Shown here: piece after piece, positions 2,943 to 34,816 of the stretch
Position numbering within the stretch: position 1 is the first letter of the stretch
Layout: each line of letters begins with the position of its first letter
Source of the DNA: Candidatus Poribacteria bacterium
GTDB taxonomy: Bacteria > Abyssobacteria > SURF-5
DNA length: 42,967 nt
NCBI GenBank assembly: GCA_016215705.1
Contig: JACRIR010000248.1
Location: 1-42,967, forward strand
Reading direction: 5' to 3'
Program-made: the position numbers and the translations under genes
Notes under the pieces: generated by a model
Told to the model about the DNA's origin: nothing
The model's input: only the letters and a program-made list of their open reading frames with translations
Databases searched by the model: none

Positions 2943-3189
2943 AAAAACCGAAGAAGAAGAGGGAATACCTTGCTCCGATCTTGTCGGAGGTCGCAATGAT
3001 CGCGGGGGGGGCGCGCTTTCTTTCGCAGTCAATCTGCCGCGCGTAGGTCGCACGCTCCGAAGAAAGAGGCGAAAGGCGAAAAGAGAGTTACGAGTTGCGA
3101 GTCGCGAGTCGCGAGTCGGGATTTGGGAAACAGGGAAATGGAACCGACTAGACTGAAACTTCATTTTCTTCCTCCTACCAGGAAACATC

Positions 3190-12234: not shown

Positions 12235-12512
12235 TTTGCGATAGGAAGGAATACATATGTGGTTAAGTCGAAGGTCGGAAGAGTACGGTTTATGGTTTAT
12301 GGTTCATGGTTTGCGGGAAGAAGTGATGAGGAACAGATTACGAGAGTGAAGAGAGAAGAAGTTTGGGGTCCGGGGTTTGGGGTTTGGATTCTCTATAAAT
12401 GGGGGTGAGGAAGCTGTCTCGTGGTCATGGATGCAATGCGAGCGCGCAGCACGCCGTGCCCCCACGGCCCATTAGATAGAAATCCCCTGGAATCCATAAA
12501 TAGTGGCGGCAG

Positions 12513-13947: not shown

Positions 13948-14394
13948 GGTGTTTTCTCCTTTTCCTCTCGATAACCGGTTTACGGTCCACGGTTTGCGGT
14001 CTGCGGTCTGCGGTCTACACGGCATGTCGCCCAAAAGGGATAGACTATTTGTCATTCTGAGCGAAGCGAAGAATCTCCTCCGGGATGCAGAAATTTGCAG
14101 CAAAATGTGAGAGTCTTCGTCATTTGGGTACGACCCTTTGCTCCTTAGAATGACAATCCCGATTCGGCTATAAACCCGAGTCTCATTCGGGTAACGAGCA
14201 ACGCAGTTCGCGGTTGGGGAAAAGCGGGGACGCGATGTCACATCATGTTTCCGTTTTTCCCGGGAATCTGAACCAGACAGCTCTGCACAGAACATTGAGA
14301 AAACATCTCGTCTGAAATTGTGCGAATAAGGACAGCCCCGAAGTACGAAAAATCGGGGACACCATACGGCATGGTGTCCCCAGTTCTCTGTTTG
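13948..14394. other. Intergenic region of repeats
   Basis: No gene. It holds GGTTTACGGTCCACGG/GGTCTGCGGTCTGCGG-type simple repeats (about 13976-14018), a TCATTCTGAGCGAAGCGAAG motif (about 14054-14073, inverted relative to 5033-5057), a decayed P1 palindrome (14225-14253) and a good P1 palindrome (14355-14381). Confidence 0.6.
14355..14381. repeat. P1 palindrome, GGGGACACCAT form
   Basis: An 11-bp perfect stem (14355-14365 with 14371-14381). It lies just downstream of the multicopper-oxidase-like gene at 14395-15852, but no T-run follows on the minus strand. Confidence 0.8.
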
Positions 14395-17768: not shown

Positions 17769-17801
17769 TAGGCGAAAGGCGAAAGGAACAAGGCGAAAGG
17801 G
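17769..17801 (+). repeat. F1 repeat, solo TAGGCGAAAGG arm
   Basis: It begins TAGGCGAAAGGCGAAAGG and ends AGGCGAAAGGG, like the left arms of the four-helix-bundle elements, but has no attached gene and no inverted partner. Confidence 0.75.
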
Positions 17802-26667: not shown

Positions 26668-27068
26668 GGCTGCCAGAACTCCTTCCCATACAGGCGGCCC
26701 CCAGAACCGTATCTTTACCTAATATGGCTTACTTTTGAAAAAGGTTCAAGTAATTGACGCTTCTGATTGGGTCATTTGCAGAAGAACAACGGAAGTCATT
26801 CCTACGAAATCCGGAATCCGGACACATTGGCCACAAGAAGTGGATTCCTGCTTTCGCAGGAATGACAAGAAGAAAAGCGGGAATGAGAAGAAGAAGGGTG
26901 GGAACTACAAGCAGAAGGGCGTGGTTGACATTGCATTGGAGAGCAGATAATATTTTCGTAGGGGCAGTTAATCGGGGACGTCATGTGACATGACGCATAA
27001 TTGGGGACACGATGCAGCATCGTGTCCCCAATTATGCATCCTTATTCCAGGAGGTTCGAGGTAAACTC
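26668..27068. other. Divergent intergenic region with two palindrome types
   Basis: It separates the minus-strand redox cluster from the plus-strand genes. It holds an ATTCCTGC/GCAGGAAT hairpin within a longer GTCATTCC-type inverted repeat (core 26844-26863), a half P1 copy (about 26974-26995), and a 21-bp-stem P1 palindrome (26995-27037). No gene seen. Confidence 0.65.
26995..27037. repeat. P1 palindrome, 21-bp perfect stem
   Basis: 26995-27015 pairs perfectly with 27017-27037 around one base. It ends 31 nt before the start codon of the AAA ATPase gene and would form a stable hairpin in its leader. Confidence 0.93.
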
Positions 27069-27956
27069 ATGGCTGAAAAAGACGTGGAGAAGTTTGGCGG
27101 AGTGGAGCGGTTTTTCGAGGAGCATTTCTTCGCTGAGGAGCCGTATTATTTGCCGATTCGAGATGAGGTGGAGATATTCCGAGCGGCGTTCCTGATGAGA
27201 TTGCCGCTCCTCCTGAAGGGGCCGACCGGCTGCGGCAAGACGCGGTTCGTCGAGTACATGGCCTACACGCTGCAGCAGGAGCGCATCCGGCAGGGTCACG
27301 AATCGCAAGATGAGGTTTCTTCCCCGCTCATCACAGTGGCTTGCCACGAAGATTTGAGCGCAAGTGATCTGGTGGGCCGGTATCTGCTCAAGGGCGAGGA
27401 GACCGTTTGGATCGATGGGCCTCTGACGCGCGCGGTCAAGGTCGGAGCTATCTGTTATCTGGACGAAATCGTCGAGGCGCGCAAGGACACGACCGTCCTC
27501 ATTCATCCGCTGGCTGATTACCGCAGGATATTGCCGGTCGAGAAGAAGGGACAAATGATACAGGCGCACGAAAACTTCCTGCTTGTCATTTCCTATAATC
27601 CGGGCTATCAGAGTTCGCTCAAGAATCTCAAGCACAGCACGCGCCAGCGTTTTATCGCAATAGATTTCGATTATCCGCCGAGGGAGGCGGAAGCCCGAAT
27701 CATTGCGCATGAGAGCGGTGTGGACGCGCGCGCATCGGAGGAACTGGCGCTGCTCGGGGAAAAGGTAAGGCGCTTGCGCGACCACGGCCTCGAAGAGGGC
27801 GTGAGCACACGCCTGCTGATATACGCCGGCAAGTTGATGGTTTCGGGCATCGCCTCGCGGCGGGCATGCGAACTGGCCGTGGCCAAGGCGATAACGGATG
27901 ATCATGAGATTGAGCGAGCGGTCGAGGAAATGATCAGGAGTATATTTGAAAAATGA
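27069..27956 (+). CDS. MoxR-type AAA+ ATPase of the CbbQ/NirQ/NorQ family
   Basis: The protein has 295 residues from the ATG at 27069, with GAGG about 8 nt upstream. Walker A is GPTGCGKT (51-58) and Walker B ICYLDE (128-133). [21 protein letters not shown] is the family's signature block after Walker B. This family works with a VWA-domain partner as a chaperone that activates or loads cofactors into an enzyme (nitric oxide reductase for NorQ-NorD, Rubisco for CbbQ-CbbO). Its VWA partner is the gene at 28456-30828, but a four-helix-bundle element has been inserted between them. No norBC or Rubisco gene lies in the window, so the client is unknown. Confidence 0.93.
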
Positions 27957-28408
27957 TAGGCGAAAGGGCAAAGGCGAAAGGGAGAGCAATGGGGAAGCGG
28001 GAGAGGTTTGAGGACTTGATTGTTTGGCAGAAGAGCATGGACTTGGCTGTGACCGTCTATCACATCTGCCAAAAAGGGGCTTTGTCAAAGGACTGGGGGC
28101 TCCGAGACCAATTGCGGAGAGCTGCGATATCTGTTCCCGCAAACATCGCAGAGGGTTACGAGCGGGGCAGCCGCAAAGAGTACATCCAATTCTTGAAAAT
28201 CGCGAAGGGCTCCATCGGTGAGCTCAGATGTCTTTTTCAGCTTGCGAATCGTGTGGAGCACATTGAAAGCCAGACTGCTACGCCACTCATCGAAAATTCT
28301 GCGGAGGTATCGAGAATTTTGAAAGCAATGATGCGATCACTCGAAGAGAAGAAGGATTGATCCTTTTCTTGATTACCCTTTCGCCTTTGCCCTTTCGCCT
28401 TTCGCCTC
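27957..28408 (+). mobile_element. Four-helix-bundle element with perfect 25-nt inverted repeats
   Basis: The left arm 27958-27982 (AGGCGAAAGGGCAAAGGC, continuing GAAAGGG) is perfectly inverted at 28376-28400; a further TTCGCCT extends the right arm. The arms enclose one gene of 123 codons. The left arm follows the stop codon of the upstream AAA ATPase without a gap, and its last bases give the GGGAG that serves as ribosome binding site for the enclosed gene. A shorter copy, with the same gene start, the same right arm and an internal deletion, lies at 31414-31579. No transposase is visible, so movement would need help in trans. Confidence 0.75.
27989..28360 (+). CDS. Four-helix bundle protein (S23/IVS-type)
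   Basis: The product has 123 residues from the ATG at 27989 and starts MGKRERFEDLIVWQKSMDL. The RFEDLIVWQKSM opening, the RDQLRRAAISVPANIAEGYERGS block and a final helix (EVSRILKAMMRSLEEK) are hallmarks of the four-helix bundle family first seen as proteins encoded in 23S rRNA intervening sequences; the Avd protein of diversity-generating retroelements has the same fold. The molecular role is not established; nucleic-acid binding is the usual suggestion. Here the gene is bounded by inverted repeats and interrupts a conserved AAA-VWA gene pair, which points to mobility. Neither an rRNA gene nor a reverse transcriptase is near. Confidence 0.92.
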   Translation: MGKRERFEDLIVWQKSMDLAVTVYHICQKGALSKDWGLRDQLRRAAISVPANIAEGYERGSRKEYIQFLKIAKGSIGELRCLFQLANRVEHIESQTATPLIENSAEVSRILKAMMRSLEEKKD

Positions 28409-28455: not shown

Positions 28456-30828
28456 TTGGATAAGTCGCCCCCGACAGTGCGGCTTGCGGAAGTCAGCCGG
28501 CTGTTGCAACTGTATTGCGCTGCGGCCACCGGAAAACCGTTGCGCATAAGGAGCACCGAAGAAGCGCCGCGCGAGTTTGTGCGTGAGGGCCATCACCTGC
28601 CGCTCACCGATGGGAAGACCATTTACCTGCCGAATTTTATAGAGAAACACCTATCGCGCGAGGAAAATTTTGCAGAGTATAAAGTGTATGCGGCGCACCA
28701 GGCGGGGTATATCGAGTTCGGCACGTTCGAGCTGGATATTGATGTTGTAATCGATCATCCGGTCTTCAGCGCATTTGAGGAACAGGCGGCAACAGTCGAC
28801 CCTGAGGCGATAGTCTCGCATTACGATCTGTTCTTCATGCTTTTCAAGGAGTCTCAACTGGCTCGCGACATTTTCTTTGCAATCGAGGACGGGCGTGTTG
28901 ATTACAGGCTGCGAGAGATGTATCGAGGGCTGGCGGCCGACATGGAAAAGGTCGCTCGCGCTTCGCTCGAAGGAAGAGCGGTGGCAGGCTCGCTTCCGCT
29001 CAGAGAAGCCCTCGTGGAAGCGCTGACCCGCTTATCCATCACCGGAAAGATTGACGAATCGTTTCTGGAAAAGTTCATGGTCGTTCCCATGCGAATGAAT
29101 TCGCACTTACAGCGAGAAGAGATCGACGAATCACTCCCCGAAAAGCTATTGCCTCTTTACCGGCGCATCTGCGGGCTGTTCGCGCGTGTGCTGAGCCACA
29201 GCGCAACCGTGACCGATTCCGCAGTTGCGACCGCGCGCGTGTATTTATTGCTCGGCTCTCTTCCGAATGTTTCATTTGGCTCGCCGTTCCTTGATTCGGC
29301 AACAAGAGGGACCGGCCATGCGGAGTCCGAGAGAATGCAGCATGGTATCCCTGCCGGGCGGGGCGTTCCGGAAAGTGAACCACTCCCCTACCGAGCCTCT
29401 CAGCCCGTAGCTTTCCGCGGGCAGACAAGACCGGAACTCGTTCAGCTTGAGAATGCGATAGAACTCTTAAAGGAAGCGGTCGTGACTCAGGAGGATTCCG
29501 GCGCAGCGCTCACGCACGACTTGCTCGAGATGCTCTTGAAGCGGGTGGTAAAAATTAAGATAAGTCAAATGACCGCGAAAGAACTTGCCGAGACATCCGG
29601 CCTGTTTATTACCGACCTCCGTGGCGTCCTGCAGGAGAAAATCGGCGAACTGTCTCCCGATGCGCGGAAGAGACTTGCAAAGCTATTAGACCGCGCTTCA
29701 GTGGCAAAGGGTAAGACCGAAGATTCGTCTCGTGTTTTCTTCTATGACGAGTGGGATTATCTTAGCGGTGACTATCGGCCGCGTTGGTGCCGGCTGCGCG
29801 AGATTTCGCTCGAGGGGGAATCGAGCGCGATTGTCTCCCAAATCCAGAAAGAGCAGGCAGCGTTGATAGCAGCCGTTAGGCGAAGTTTCCAGCGGATACG
29901 TCCCGAAATGCTCCGAAAGGTGAAACGGCTTCGAAGCGGCGAAGAGATCGAGTTGAACGACGCGATCGAAGCGGTGCTCGATCGTCGAGCCGGTCTCACT
30001 CCGTCGGAGAGGGTCTACCAGAAGCGTGACCGGCGCATGCGCGATGTCGCAACGGTCTTTCTCCTGGACTTGAGCGCATCGACCGACGAGTGGATTGTGG
30101 AAGAGCCCCTGCATGAGAGCGGCGGGCCCCGCCACGGCGGGGCATCACGCTCCGCGCTTTTCGGGTATTTCTCGCTGGATGCCGGCTCGGAGCGCGCGGC
30201 CATGAGGGGGAACACCCCGGCGAATTCTCCGCCAAACGGCGCAACCCCGGGAGGCGCGGTCTCGAGCGGCGCGCGCGATTTCTCACCACCGGATAGAGCA
30301 ATGCGCGTGATTGACATCGAGCGTGAGGCTCTTGTTGTCATGGCTGAAGCACTCGAGAGCCTGGGGGACATGTACGCGATATACGGTTTCTCCGGTTACG
30401 GCCGCGAAAATGTGGAATTCTTCGTGATCAAGGATTTTTCGGAAAAATTCTCCGAGCGGGCGCGTCGCCGCATCGGCGCAATCAAGCCGCAGAAAAGCAC
30501 GCGTATGGGACCGGCTATCCGGCACGCAATGCAAAAGCTTGTCGCAACTGATTGCCGACTCAAAGCGCTCATACTTTTGAGCGACGGATATCCACAGGAT
30601 TACGACTACGGACCTGACAGAACGAGCCGGGACTACGGCCTCCATGACACGACGGTGGCTCTGCGGGAAGCGCGCAAGAAGAAGGTGCACACATTCTGTG
30701 TGACGGTCGATCAGGCCGGCAACGACTATTTGCGCGCCATGTGCGGCGGGGAGAATTACCTCGTTGTGAAGAGACCGAGCGCGCTGCCGAAGATATTGCC
30801 GCGAGTGTATAGGGGATTGACAATCTGA
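28456..30828 (+). CDS. NorD/CbbO-like VWA-domain protein
   Basis: The protein has 790 residues. The start is a TTG at 28456 with AAAGG about 8 nt upstream. The N-terminal two-thirds is the helical NorD-type region. The C-terminal VWA domain has the metal-binding MIDAS residues DLSAST (538-543), the Thr in TRMGPAIRH (about 684) and the Asp in LLSDGYPQD (about 708), followed by the family block GLHDTTVALREAR. It is the partner of the ATPase at 27069-27956. Oddities: a Gly/Pro/Ser-rich stretch of about 65 residues (about 551-615, DNA 30108-30300, with a GCCCCGCC/GGCGGGGC hairpin at 30126-30143) interrupts the VWA domain right after the first MIDAS motif. A P3 palindrome at 29090-29105 encodes RMNSH. 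The MIDAS set remains complete. Confidence 0.9.
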   Translation: MDKSPPTVRLAEVSRLLQLYCAAATGKPLRIRSTEEAPREFVREGHHLPLTDGKTIYLPNFIEKHLSREENFAEYKVYAAHQAGYIEFGTFELDIDVVIDHPVFSAFEEQAATVDPEAIVSHYDLFFMLFKESQLARDIFFAIEDGRVDYRLREMYRGLAADMEKVARASLEGRAVAGSLPLREALVEALTRLSITGKIDESFLEKFMVVPMRMNSHLQREEIDESLPEKLLPLYRRICGLFARVLSHSATVTDSAVATARVYLLLGSLPNVSFGSPFLDSATRGTGHAESERMQHGIPAGRGVPESEPLPYRASQPVAFRGQTRPELVQLENAIELLKEAVVTQEDSGAALTHDLLEMLLKRVVKIKISQMTAKELAETSGLFITDLRGVLQEKIGELSPDARKRLAKLLDRASVAKGKTEDSSRVFFYDEWDYLSGDYRPRWCRLREISLEGESSAIVSQIQKEQAALIAAVRRSFQRIRPEMLRKVKRLRSGEEIELNDAIEAVLDRRAGLTPSERVYQKRDRRMRDVATVFLLDLSASTDEWIVEEPLHESGGPRHGGASRSALFGYFSLDAGSERAAMRGNTPANSPPNGATPGGAVSSGARDFSPPDRAMRVIDIEREALVVMAEALESLGDMYAIYGFSGYGRENVEFFVIKDFSEKFSERARRRIGAIKPQKSTRMGPAIRHAMQKLVATDCRLKALILLSDGYPQDYDYGPDRTSRDYGLHDTTVALREARKKKVHTFCVTVDQAGNDYLRAMCGGENYLVVKRPSALPKILPRVYRGLTI

Positions 30829-30987
30829 ATATTTTGGATTTTCGATTTTGCATTTTGGATTTGAAGAAAACCTTTGTGTTGGGCAGTTCGAAACATTGTT
30901 CGCATATTTGAGGTGGAGCGATCTGCCAGGATACTCTTCAATAAGCTAGTTCTTTGCGCTCTTTGGGTCTTTGCGGTTTAATTGCTT

Positions 30988-31416
30988 ATGAATGCTGAAG
31001 GAATCGTGCTGGCGGTGGGCGCGGTCATACGGGACCGGGAAGGCCGAATACTGCTTGTGCGGCATCGCCGCGAAAGAGGGGGATTCTGGCAGGGAAAGTG
31101 GATTTGTCCGGGCGGGAAACTGGCGCCGGGTGAGACACTTGCCGAGGGCGCGCTGCGCGAGGTTCTCGAGGAGACACATCTCCGTATCAGGCTCGGGCGG
31201 ATTCTGGCGCCTTTTGAAAGAATCGTGCGGGAGAATGGCGGCGTGACGCTGCATGTGGTTTACGTGGATTTTCTGGCTGATTTGATAGAGGGCGACCTTG
31301 AGCCGGATGATGACGTCGGTGAGGCCGAATGGTGGGACGACGAGACGCTGCGCGAGCGGTGGGATGAATTACATGAGGACACGCAGCGGCTGCTGTCGCA
31401 GGCAGACATAACATAG
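30988..31416 (+). CDS. NUDIX hydrolase
   Basis: The product has 142 residues from the ATG at 30988; an in-frame TTG at 30982 is possible, and no clear ribosome binding site is seen. The NUDIX box is complete: G43-x5-E49-x7-R57-E58-V-L-E61-E62 in GGKLAPGETLAEGALREVLEE. This gives a metal-dependent pyrophosphohydrolase of nucleoside diphosphate derivatives; the N-terminal layout (AVGAVIRDREGRILLVRHRR, FWQGKWICPGG) is that of MutT/8-oxo-dGTPase-like members, but the substrate cannot be told. Its TAG stop codon is the first three bases of the deleted four-helix-bundle element. Confidence 0.9.
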   Translation: MNAEGIVLAVGAVIRDREGRILLVRHRRERGGFWQGKWICPGGKLAPGETLAEGALREVLEETHLRIRLGRILAPFERIVRENGGVTLHVVYVDFLADLIEGDLEPDDDVGEAEWWDDETLRERWDELHEDTQRLLSQADIT

Positions 31417-31579
31417 GCGAAAGGCGAAAGGGAGAACGATGGGGAAACGGAAGCGCTTCGAGGACTTGATTGTTTGGCAGAACAGCATGGATCTGGCTGC
31501 GAACGTCTATCGGCTCTGCCAAAGAGAGGCCTCTTTCTTGGTTCGCCCTTTCGCCTTTGCCCTTTCGCCTTTCGCCTAT
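31414..31579 (+). mobile_element. Internally deleted copy of the four-helix-bundle element (miniature form)
   Basis: The left arm begins TAGGCGAAAGGCGAAAGGG (31414-31432). The right arm 31546-31570 is identical to 28376-28400, and the shared sequence continues TTCGCCT. Between them lie the first 31 or so codons of the four-helix-bundle gene (about 85 percent identical to 27989-28080), joined straight to the right arm. Total length is about 166 bp against 452 bp for the full copy. It sits between the NUDIX and coaE genes; its left end is the stop codon of the first, and it ends about 11 nt before the ribosome binding site of the second. Confidence 0.75.
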
Positions 31580-32213: not shown

Positions 32214-32246
32214 AAGGCGAAAGACGAAAGGAGCAAGGCGAAAGGG
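32211..32246 (+). repeat. F1 repeat arm starting at the coaE stop codon
   Basis: The TAG of coaE begins the repeat (TAGAAGGCGAAAGACGAAAGG, ending AGGCGAAAGGG). It is the third F1 copy in the window that abuts or contains a stop codon. Confidence 0.75.
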
Positions 32247-32476: not shown

Positions 32477-34816
32477 TTGGTGAATGAATCTTCGCGATGC
32501 AACAATAGGGTTGTCAGACGAATTCTCCGCATGATTGTGGGCCGAATTCTCCCCCCTCTCTTCGTGTTCCTGGCAAGCTTGACCGTCTATGTCTGCACGA
32601 TGCCGCCGGACATCGCCGCAGTCGGCTACGCCGCTGACACACTGAAGTTCCAATATATCGGCAAGGTTTTCGGCACGCCGCACTTCGGGTATCCCACCTA
32701 CATGTTCCTGAACATAATCGTCAGCCGGCTGCCTGTCTTCAATCTCGCATATCGGCTAAACCTGCTTTCCGCGGTGCTTGCTTCGGCGACACTCGTCGTG
32801 CTCTATTTCATAGTCTTGTCTGTCCTTGACAAGAGGAGATGCGGGGACCGTCCGGCAATTCGTCAGAAGGGCGCAGATTGCACCGCAAGGGCGCAGACCT
32901 ATCCCCATAATTCGGGGACACGATGCGGCATCGTGTCCCCGAATTATGGGGGCATCGTATCCCCGAATCATGGGAGGTCCAATCCACAAGCAGGCGCTCT
33001 CCAGTCAAACGGTCCACAGATGGACGATTCACAAGCAAGCGATGCGCAAACACTCCGAATGCAAACAGACAATTCATTGTCCGACAGGCTTATTGCCGTT
33101 GCGTGCGCCCTTCTGTTCGGGGTCACGTACACCTTCTGGGAGAATTCGATAATAGCCGAGGTGTATTCACTGCACACGCTGTTTATGTGCGGGGTGATGT
33201 TGCTGATGCTGCATTGGGAGGAAAGCCGAAGGCCGCTGTTCTATTACTTTGCATGTCTCGTATACGCTGTCAGCTTCGGGAATCATCTTGTCGGAATAAC
33301 GATGCTGCCCGCGCTGGTGTATTGGACTCTTGCGGTCGATCATACGATTCTGTTCAAGAAAAGGACATATCTCCTCATCGCATTATTCATCCTCCTCGGA
33401 ATGGCGCAATATGGATACGTGCTTGCGAGGTCGCGCCAGGTTCCACCGCAAGAGAAGGTCTTTCAGTATTGGCCCTATTTCGAGGACTTCGGCAAGACGC
33501 ATCTGGAGAGTTATGCGCGATCCGTTCCTGAACTGCTCAACGTGGTTTCGGGAGGAGGATGGAGAAACCGCCTCGCGCAGTATTCTCCGGCGAAGCCTGA
33601 TTTCAAAGATCGACTACCCTTGTTCTACAACCTCTTTCTTCTTCAGTACAGTCCCGCGGGTCTGATTCTTGGAGCAACTGGAATCGCCTTCTCATTTCTG
33701 AAGCGCCGCCGACGTGCGATCTTCTTTTCGCTGTTGTTGGCGGCGCACATGGCTTTCGTGGTGACATGGGGCGTGCCCGGAATAGACGTTCACGTTATCC
33801 CCGCGTATCTTATACTGGCCATATTCATCGCGCACAACGACAACTTCTTCCGGACGGCATGGGTCGAACAGCGTCCGGTCGTTCGCCGAATAGGACGGGC
33901 GTGCCTCGTGGCCCTGCTTGCCGCGCTCATAGTATTCTTGACTCTGACGCGTTATCGAAGGCTTGACCAGAGCAAGAATGTCTGGCTCGCGGATATGCTT
34001 GAAACTGCGATTCCGAGGATTCCGGACAACTCCATCATTTTCACGAACCATGTTTATGCGACCGCATTCTGGCAGAAGCTCTATGGCGAAGACGCCCGCC
34101 CCGGCGTCCGAATCACGGTACATCCCATCTGGACGATTTGCCGCGAAGATCTTGTTTATGCGCTCAGGCGCTACCAGAATGTGTTCTATTTCCTGGACGA
34201 ACCATACTGGGGGGCGCTTGCCGAAATGGGAATCGATTTTGAGATTCGGAACTTCTCGAGTCTAAGTCTGGGCAGCTTCCTTTCCGGATTCGAGCCCGGC
34301 GAAATCGTCGCCTCGTATGCGGTTGTCGAAGAGGAAGACACAGCACGCGAAGCGCCAACACCTCCCTTTCCTAACGGAGAGTCTGCACCCCCCTTTCTCA
34401 ACGGAAGATTTACGCCTCCCTTTCTTAACGGAAAGCCTGTACCCCCCTTTCGTGAAGGGGGGATGGGGGGATTTAGCATCCTCGGACTTCTTGAAAGGAA
34501 CGGAAGCATCCGTATTCTCATGACGACGCGTGGGGCTTTCTCCTTGAGGAAAGGCGCTGAGGTTGGGGGAATCAAGCTCCCTGTTGACATAAGAGTTGCG
34601 CCTGGCGAGACTATATATATTGATGGAGTAGATTGCTCTCGGTACAGGAAACGTAATAATCTGGTCGTGCTCGATCCTGTCAGTGGAAAAGTGAAAGCGA
34701 TGGTTTATGTGGATTGGATGCGCGGAACAGCCGTTGACCCCGCCTATGCGCTGCTGGTCAGAGGGACAAAGAGAGTGTCCCGTAATTGTGATTCCGAGGG
34801 CGCAATGACGGATTAA
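32477..34816 (+). CDS. DUF2723 (POMT/TMEM260-like) polytopic membrane protein with repeat insertions
   Basis: The protein has 779 residues from TTG 32477 (AGAGAGGA about 9 nt upstream); GTG 32480 is equivalent. The N-terminal part matches the DUF2723 pattern: MPPDIAAVGYAADT, HFGYPTYMFLN, LAYRLNLLSAV. Many membrane helices follow, with a soluble C-terminal part. Relatives look like GT-C glycosyltransferases of surface glycans or proteins. Three non-family segments are visible: a perfect P1 hairpin in frame (DNA 32903-32951, about residues 143-158, within a hydrophilic loop up to about 205); four 9-residue repeats beginning PPF (629-664); and a C-terminal end formed by a miniature-element end (34770-34789). 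All keep the frame open, so the protein tolerates them, or the gene is decaying. Confidence 0.85.
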   Translation: MVNESSRCNNRVVRRILRMIVGRILPPLFVFLASLTVYVCTMPPDIAAVGYAADTLKFQYIGKVFGTPHFGYPTYMFLNIIVSRLPVFNLAYRLNLLSAVLASATLVVLYFIVLSVLDKRRCGDRPAIRQKGADCTARAQTYPHNSGTRCGIVSPNYGGIVSPNHGRSNPQAGALQSNGPQMDDSQASDAQTLRMQTDNSLSDRLIAVACALLFGVTYTFWENSIIAEVYSLHTLFMCGVMLLMLHWEESRRPLFYYFACLVYAVSFGNHLVGITMLPALVYWTLAVDHTILFKKRTYLLIALFILLGMAQYGYVLARSRQVPPQEKVFQYWPYFEDFGKTHLESYARSVPELLNVVSGGGWRNRLAQYSPAKPDFKDRLPLFYNLFLLQYSPAGLILGATGIAFSFLKRRRRAIFFSLLLAAHMAFVVTWGVPGIDVHVIPAYLILAIFIAHNDNFFRTAWVEQRPVVRRIGRACLVALLAALIVFLTLTRYRRLDQSKNVWLADMLETAIPRIPDNSIIFTNHVYATAFWQKLYGEDARPGVRITVHPIWTICREDLVYALRRYQNVFYFLDEPYWGALAEMGIDFEIRNFSSLSLGSFLSGFEPGEIVASYAVVEEEDTAREAPTPPFPNGESAPPFLNGRFTPPFLNGKPVPPFREGGMGGFSILGLLERNGSIRILMTTRGAFSLRKGAEVGGIKLPVDIRVAPGETIYIDGVDCSRYRKRNNLVVLDPVSGKVKAMVYVDWMRGTAVDPAYALLVRGTKRVSRNCDSEGAMTD
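32903..32975. repeat. P1 palindrome, 24-bp perfect stem, inside a coding sequence
   Basis: 32903-32926 pairs perfectly with 32928-32951 around one base, the longest stem of the family in the window. A partial second copy follows (32953-32975). It is translated as NSGTRCGIVSPNYGG within the DUF2723 protein. Confidence 0.95.
34361..34468 (+). repeat. Four 27-bp tandem repeats in frame (PPF repeats)
   Basis: Units at 34361, 34388, 34415 and 34442 encode PPFPNGESA, PPFLNGRFT, PPFLNGKPV and PPFREGGMG. The last unit extends into GAAGGGGGGATGGGGGGATTT, the same type of sequence as 20554-20597 and 35190-35220. Confidence 0.9.
34770..34789. repeat. Solo end of the miniature element, at the 3' end of the DUF2723 gene
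   Basis: Twenty bases are identical to 20636-20655, the left end of the element at 20639-20726. The DUF2723 frame reads through it and stops 27 bases later. Confidence 0.7.

Follow-up and report, generated by a model that had tools for sequence, protein, structure and literature searches.

In a 42,967-nt stretch of DNA from a Candidatus Poribacteria bacterium (contig JACRIR010000248.1; hereafter the window), a small gene encoding a four-helix-bundle (fhb) protein stands between inverted arms at the junction of two host genes. The unit and its neighbours comprise the following features, where labels beginning with G, C and L denote genomes, contigs and loci, respectively.

27012 to 27956, forward strand: upstream host gene, a MoxR-like AAA ATPase of the CbbQ/NorQ type (PF07728 and PF08406, CbbQ_C)
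27955 to 27989, forward strand: left arm, exact core 27958-27982, heptads GGCGAAA/GGGCAAA, ending in GGGAGAG (likely ribosome-binding site)
27989 to 28360, forward strand: fhb gene, four-helix-bundle protein of 123 aa (PF05635/TIGR02436)
28376 to 28407, reverse strand: right arm, exact core 28376-28400, heptads TTTCGCC/TTTGCCC
28456 to 30828, forward strand: downstream host gene, the VWA-domain partner (family-domain matches), which in the relatives G001 and G002 directly adjoins the AAA gene, with no insert

A sequence-only reading of this DNA had described perfect 25-nt inverted arms around a single 123-codon gene, and this description holds: the two cores are exact reverse complements, the match continues imperfectly to 35 nt (89%), and the sole open reading frame (ORF) between them comprises 123 codons and a stop (135 codons from an alternative in-frame ATG at 27953). 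The same reading placed the left arm directly after the upstream stop codon and credited it with the ribosome-binding site of the enclosed gene. The arm indeed starts 1 nt past the TGA of the AAA gene (27954-27956), and GGGAGAG, at its inner end, occupies the position expected for a ribosome-binding site, and is likely to be one. Profile searches likewise agreed with the reading in placing a four-helix-bundle gene (PF05635, E 1e-34; TIGR02436, E 3e-34) between an AAA ATPase and its VWA partner. Absent from that account is the defining feature of the arms, a 7-nt periodicity: they are tandem arrays of GGCGAAA/GGGCAAA, and not unique 25-mers. The 25-nt arm sequence, at 0-3 mismatches, occurs four times in the window and in none of 100 shuffles, and GGCGAAAGG is found 17 times where 0.7 are expected. 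No rRNA was detected in the window at Rfam gathering thresholds; the unit stands between the AAA and VWA genes and not inside a 23S gene. There was no reverse transcriptase among the Pfam matches of the AAA, VWA, NUDIX and fhb proteins, nor any match to PADLOC (defence) or PHROGs (phage) families at E 0.01. Just 5' of the AAA gene, at 27000-27032, lies a perfect 16-bp palindrome (ATTGGGGACACGATGC/GCATCGTGTCCCCAAT).

The AlphaFold 2 model of the fhb protein (pLDDT 95) most closely resembles the solved S23 proteins 2gsc (Z 19.5) and 2rld (Z 17.9), followed by Avd in the ribonucleoproteins of diversity-generating retroelements (8ub7, Z 14.4); unrelated helical bundles score 12.8 or less. Both S23 entries contain five chains, and 2gsc has been published as five four-helix bundles in one assembly. 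By analogy with these two homologues, the window protein is probably pentameric. Eleven columns are invariant among 40 aligned fhb proteins, including N52, E55, G56, R59 and E78. The 2gsc protein is XCC0516 of X. campestris, an organism that also carries GGGAATC arrays; the best relative among the 29 Gammaproteobacteria loci examined was 52% identical.

The architecture of one gene plus arms extends far beyond this genome. Scoring the inverted similarity between the 300-nt flanks of each fhb gene, with scores of 28 or above taken as positive, we found inverted arms at 76/111 fhb loci from many phyla against 8/746 shifted positions, and at 113 of 173 loci (65%, again from many phyla) against 16/307 other genes (5%), many of the 16 positive controls being further fhb genes outside the query set. 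An independent Gammaproteobacteria sample gave 24/29. The period of 7 nt is directly apparent in the autocorrelation of these Gammaproteobacteria flanks, which reaches 0.447, 0.403, 0.388 and 0.343 at lags 7, 14, 21 and 28, compared with approximately 0.26 at other lags; peaks at the same four lags occur in the flanks of the 173-locus set. Genome G010 carries about eight copies (L401-L408) of a divergent, back-to-back pair of PF05635 genes, and in the copy examined (L402) repeat units of about 7 nt lie downstream of the pair.

The heptad word is particular to each element. Several units with different words, the left word matching the right in each, occupy single genomes of Desulfacinum, Brocadia and Nostoc. 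Across 100 loci, the more alike two fhb proteins are, the more alike are their arms (Mantel r 0.33, p<=0.0005; this test and the comparisons that follow are uncorrected for phylogeny), and the fraction of pairs sharing a word climbs from 0.1% below 20% protein identity to 34% at 60-80% and 100% above 80%; an antisense control of this covariation was near zero. One word, GGGTCAA/GGGGCAA, is common to Omnitrophota, Zixibacteria, Cloacimonadota, Geobacter and Syntrophaceae, whose proteins are about 55-65% identical. Thus the arms do travel with the gene, accompanying it across phyla and co-varying with its product, where a failure to accompany it elsewhere would have spoken against the mobile unit posited by the sequence-only reading. 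In 93% of loci the left arm shows a G skew, and the arms are therefore polar relative to the fhb gene.

Within the host genome (G000), arms also occur without the gene, both as solo arrays and as deleted copies. The window itself holds four such features.

31414 to 31577, forward strand: internally deleted copy, resembling a miniature inverted-repeat transposable element (MITE), 3 kb downstream of the unit and flanked by a NUDIX gene and a coaE-like (dephospho-CoA kinase) gene
17771 to 17800, forward strand: solo GGCGAAA array
32216 to 32245, forward strand: solo GGCGAAA array, starting 2 nt past the stop codon of the coaE-like gene
3068 to 3081, forward strand: short solo GGCGAAA array, beside a second heptad array, CGAGTCG (3091-3118)

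The deleted copy retains the left arm, about 90 nt from the start of the fhb gene and the right arm, the middle being gone; its left part is 85% identical to the unit over 111 nt, and 119 nt separate its arrays. Its predicted RNA hairpin has a z of -4.1, and a second predicted hairpin scored -3.1. Four further gene-less inverted array pairs lie elsewhere in the genome (L363, L377, L389 and L394), and all five have kept both ends of their parent, the fhb unit, while losing its gene, as MITEs do. In total, 65 arrays of the window's heptad word, mostly solo, were counted in the window and 38 further regions. The only protein found inside arms in this genome is fhb, and the other arm pairs there enclose no gene. 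PF05635 has only four matches in the genome, one of which (L011) carries quite different inverted heptads (ATGATGA). The window contains other heptad arrays too, comprising GGTTTAT (12287-12312), GTTTGGG (12361-12387), CGGTCTG (13976-14018) and ATTTTGG (30831-30862), the last starting 2 nt past the VWA stop codon, in addition to the CGAGTCG array listed above; 24-nt tandem repeats (GGCATCGTATCCCCGAATCATGGG) occupy 32927-32974.

Arms are placed straight 3' of stop codons, with fixed polarity. The outer end of the left arm falls between -8 and +20 nt of a same-strand stop in 56/111 units, against 4.4% of random positions, and 19 of the 65 host-genome arrays lie -5 to +15 nt from a stop, where 3.4% are expected, the opposite orientation being found in 0/65. 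Part of this pattern may come from insertions at other places having been selected against. The orientation of fhb genes relative to their neighbours is unbiased (94/139 vs 273/419).

Orthologous junctions differ in the presence of the unit, which counts against the gene being ancestral at its site in all relatives, the finding that would have undercut the sequence-only reading. The AAA and VWA genes are adjacent, and the unit absent, in G001 and G002, both family-level relatives of the host. In Nitrospira, a unit occupies one junction in 3/59 genomes, and at least 40 others have both flanks close together without it; one locus (L224) has most of the left-arm region but lacks the gene, and several genomes carry another heptad-like inverted sequence at this junction. 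On cyanobacterial plasmids, Picosynechococcus PCC 7003 has a unit between cas10 and cmr3 that PCC 7002 lacks; cas6 and cas4 are separated by independent units in Anabaena 90 and Pseudanabaena galeata, whereas relatives have no fhb gene there; and sister plasmids of Nostoc ATCC 53789 have units at two neighbouring junctions, such that each plasmid is the empty site of the other. CRISPR-Cas operons of cyanobacterial plasmids thus hold fhb units at type I-D cas6|cas4 junctions twice independently, and at a type III-B cas10|cmr3 junction once (L253, L255 and L268). The alignment of empty sites proposed earlier as a means of defining exact ends and any target duplication succeeded in part, in that empty sites were found, but the ends are ambiguous through the repeats, and the plasmid pairs allow a duplication of approximately 3 nt at most (CTA, ATG).

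Together, we consider it likely that the window feature represents a very small mobile cassette of wide occurrence, composed of a gene for a pentameric fhb protein and inverted, element-specific 7-nt arrays. The earlier claim of a mobile unit whose only protein is the four-helix bundle is supported by the empty sites, the travelling arms and the sole protein, mobility itself being probable. Mechanistically, the fhb pentamer may recognize its own heptad word as an array, in RNA or single-stranded DNA, each protomer binding one repeat unit or nearly so; this would resemble the way in which Avd, a relative by fold, works in the retroelement ribonucleoprotein. The complex would then protect the hairpin cassette and present it for insertion where gene ends are exposed, and would do the same in trans for copies consisting of arms alone; the insertion step could be performed by host or foreign enzymes, and a helper is likely. 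More broadly, and with a little less than even confidence, we propose that PF05635 is the autonomous core of an unrecognized, multi-phylum class of mobile element, in which the pentamer reads its own word and spreads cassettes and arms to the 3' ends of genes without a conventional transposase. In this proposal, fhb units may be the source of many unexplained 7-letter repeats in bacterial genomes, and the rRNA intervening sequences (IVSs) may be a special case, namely copies that would have landed inside 23S genes.

Several results weigh against the mobile-cassette interpretation. No insertion event has been caught, and repeats blur the exact ends, leaving room for a target duplication of no more than about 3 nt. 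No catalytic family was recognized in the fhb protein. Arm scores are low for between one quarter and one third of the fhb loci, heptads being visible by eye on at least one side in most of these. Beside the sampled fhb genes we found no exact tandem copies of the published Beggiatoaceae, Xanthomonas or cyanobacterial heptamers, except a Nostoc-like GGGGAYA. Finally, there is no co-occurrence between reverse transcriptases and fhb (11/36 vs 17/62 genomes, p 0.82), and an obligate reverse-transcriptase helper is therefore not supported.

Among alternative explanations, it is possible, if on balance doubtful, that fhb units are passengers moved in trans by a Y1/RAYT-type transposase or another enzyme, with fhb as only a cofactor or immunity factor. 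Y1 transposases are commoner in genomes with fhb (31/36 vs 30/62, Fisher p 2e-4, a statistic that ignores kinship), and RAYT-REP systems (REP, repetitive extragenic palindromic) also leave solo repeats. Yet the RAYT genes of fhb-rich genomes have inverted, non-heptad arms of their own (GGGGTCAGGTCT..., lag-7 autocorrelation 0.279), and G095 combines 10 fhb matches with no Y1 match at all. A GxxExxY nuclease family also co-occurs with fhb (p 5e-6) and carries its own arms, and for this reason both correlations may mirror genomes that tolerate many small elements. In G041 and others (L418-L432), RAYT-like Y1 transposases lie inside inverted GGGGTCAGGTCT-type repeats, with up to 19 Y1 matches per genome. 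Loci of the GxxExxY family (PF13366, PD-(D/E)XK; L274-L303, from 98 genomes) have inverted arms in 21/24 cases, of another kind (ACCACAGAGACACAGAG, CCGCAGATTACGCAGATTA), with units near 8-9 nt and without a period of 7, and may constitute a sister class of one-gene elements that bring their own nuclease. DUF559 (PF04480) endonuclease-like genes (L304-L322) have inverted CCCCCTTT...AAAGGGGG arms in 8/17 loci.

A purely regulatory role is improbable, in our estimation. Here, fhb would be a host regulator, for example of translation, its arms autoregulatory operators and the other arrays its targets, with no transposition involved. The overlap of the arm with the ribosome-binding site, the covariation of arms and protein, and the fixed polarity of solo arrays 3' of stop codons would all suit such a role, and regulation has been proposed for the TAACTGA heptamers (MacGregor, 2015; PMC4679880). 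What is seen is, however, the behaviour of mobile elements: the unit is patchily present at orthologous junctions, gene and word are shared across phyla, deleted copies retain both of their ends, and a single genome can hold several units that differ in their word.

Retro-mobilization, in which an Avd-like fhb protein would guide a reverse transcriptase to copy the hairpin RNA into new sites, is less plausible still. It draws on the fold match to Avd, the strength of the predicted hairpins, and orientation-specific placement behind stop codons. It is opposed by the lack of co-occurrence described above, and by the absence of any RVT_1 match in the fhb-rich genomes G041, G055, G062 and G095. 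The RVT_1 matches of the host genome lie on contigs C221 and C52, and not on that of the unit (C193). At L434 (1097-2919), a group-II-intron-like reverse transcriptase stands immediately 5' of an fhb gene.

Lastly, that heptad arrays arose by polymerase slippage at gene ends, where fhb genes merely happen to be located, can be discounted almost entirely: heptamers are indeed reported to be the most frequent long simple repeats of many bacteria, for which slippage has been proposed (discussed in PMC4679880 and PMC4692102), but slippage yields direct and not mirror-image pairs, and has no means of matching the word from left to right, of varying it per unit in one genome or of coupling it to a protein; inverted arms surround only 5% of control genes. 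Genome-specific slippage is ruled out because units of one genome carry different words, and insertion of the unit into a pre-existing tandem array because its flanks would then be direct rather than mirror-image.

Under the mobile-cassette interpretation, a widespread orphan protein family acquires a defined genomic context and a nucleic-acid target that can be tested. As each unit has its own recognition word, a protein-to-repeat code becomes directly testable. The interpretation also offers a source for the heptanucleotide repeats of cyanobacteria, Xanthomonas and Beggiatoaceae, which have lacked a mechanism, and ties them to the rRNA IVSs, the origin of which has been an open question since 1990. 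Should pentamer and arms suffice for spread, the unit would be a mobile element that lacks any known recombinase; should a helper be required, then the arms reveal the sequence on which that helper acts.

The unit can be set against several known systems. It has neither the transposase of insertion sequence elements, its only ORF being a PF05635 gene with a four-helix-bundle fold, nor the reverse transcriptase, template repeat or variable repeat of diversity-generating retroelements, with which it shares the fold of Avd (Z about 14 to the fhb model). The 1.5-Mb genome G488 (L409-L411) has 11 copies of a locus with an Avd-like gene, these genes being weak PF05635 matches; the copy examined (L409) is retroelement-like, with a variable-repeat gene end, Avd and the start of a reverse transcriptase, and without heptad arms. 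RAYT/REP-REPIN systems resemble the fhb unit in combining one gene with inverted arms that co-vary with the protein, and in dispersing solo arms between genes. RAYT, however, has the catalytic domain of a Y1 (HUH) transposase and its REPs are palindromic, whereas fhb has heptad arrays and no catalytic domain; the window unit contains no Y1/HUH gene, and in fhb-rich genomes the RAYTs stand apart and carry different arms.

Published heptanucleotide repeats, including the cyanobacterial short tandemly repeated repetitive sequences, TAACTGA of Beggiatoaceae, and GGGAATC and GGGGAYT of Xanthomonas/Nostoc, are similarly intergenic 7-nt tandem arrays, often in inverted pairs, but no gene is linked to them in those publications. 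For those of Beggiatoaceae, cyanobacteria and Bacteroidetes, it was reported that no mechanism of spreading is evident, and the possibility was raised that the mobile element is a protein that binds the repeats (PMC4679880); the GGGAATC repeats include about 70 inverted pairs in X. campestris and were found to have no association with mobile elements (PMC4692102). In the open-licence PMC papers searched, subscription papers and preprints being outside the search, no link between PF05635 and heptads was found. The 23S rRNA IVSs with an S23/IVP ORF in Leptospira and Coxiella have a PF05635-family protein between terminal inverted repeats, which in Coxiella form a 28-bp RNA stem, and their mobility has long been suspected (PMC4990558). 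The window unit has the same organization and a similar size (~430 nt), with one PF05635 ORF between inverted repeats that are predicted to form a long RNA stem. It differs from these IVSs in lying outside rRNA, at the junction of protein-coding genes, and in having as its arms element-specific 7-nt arrays, of which solo and deleted copies are found genome-wide.
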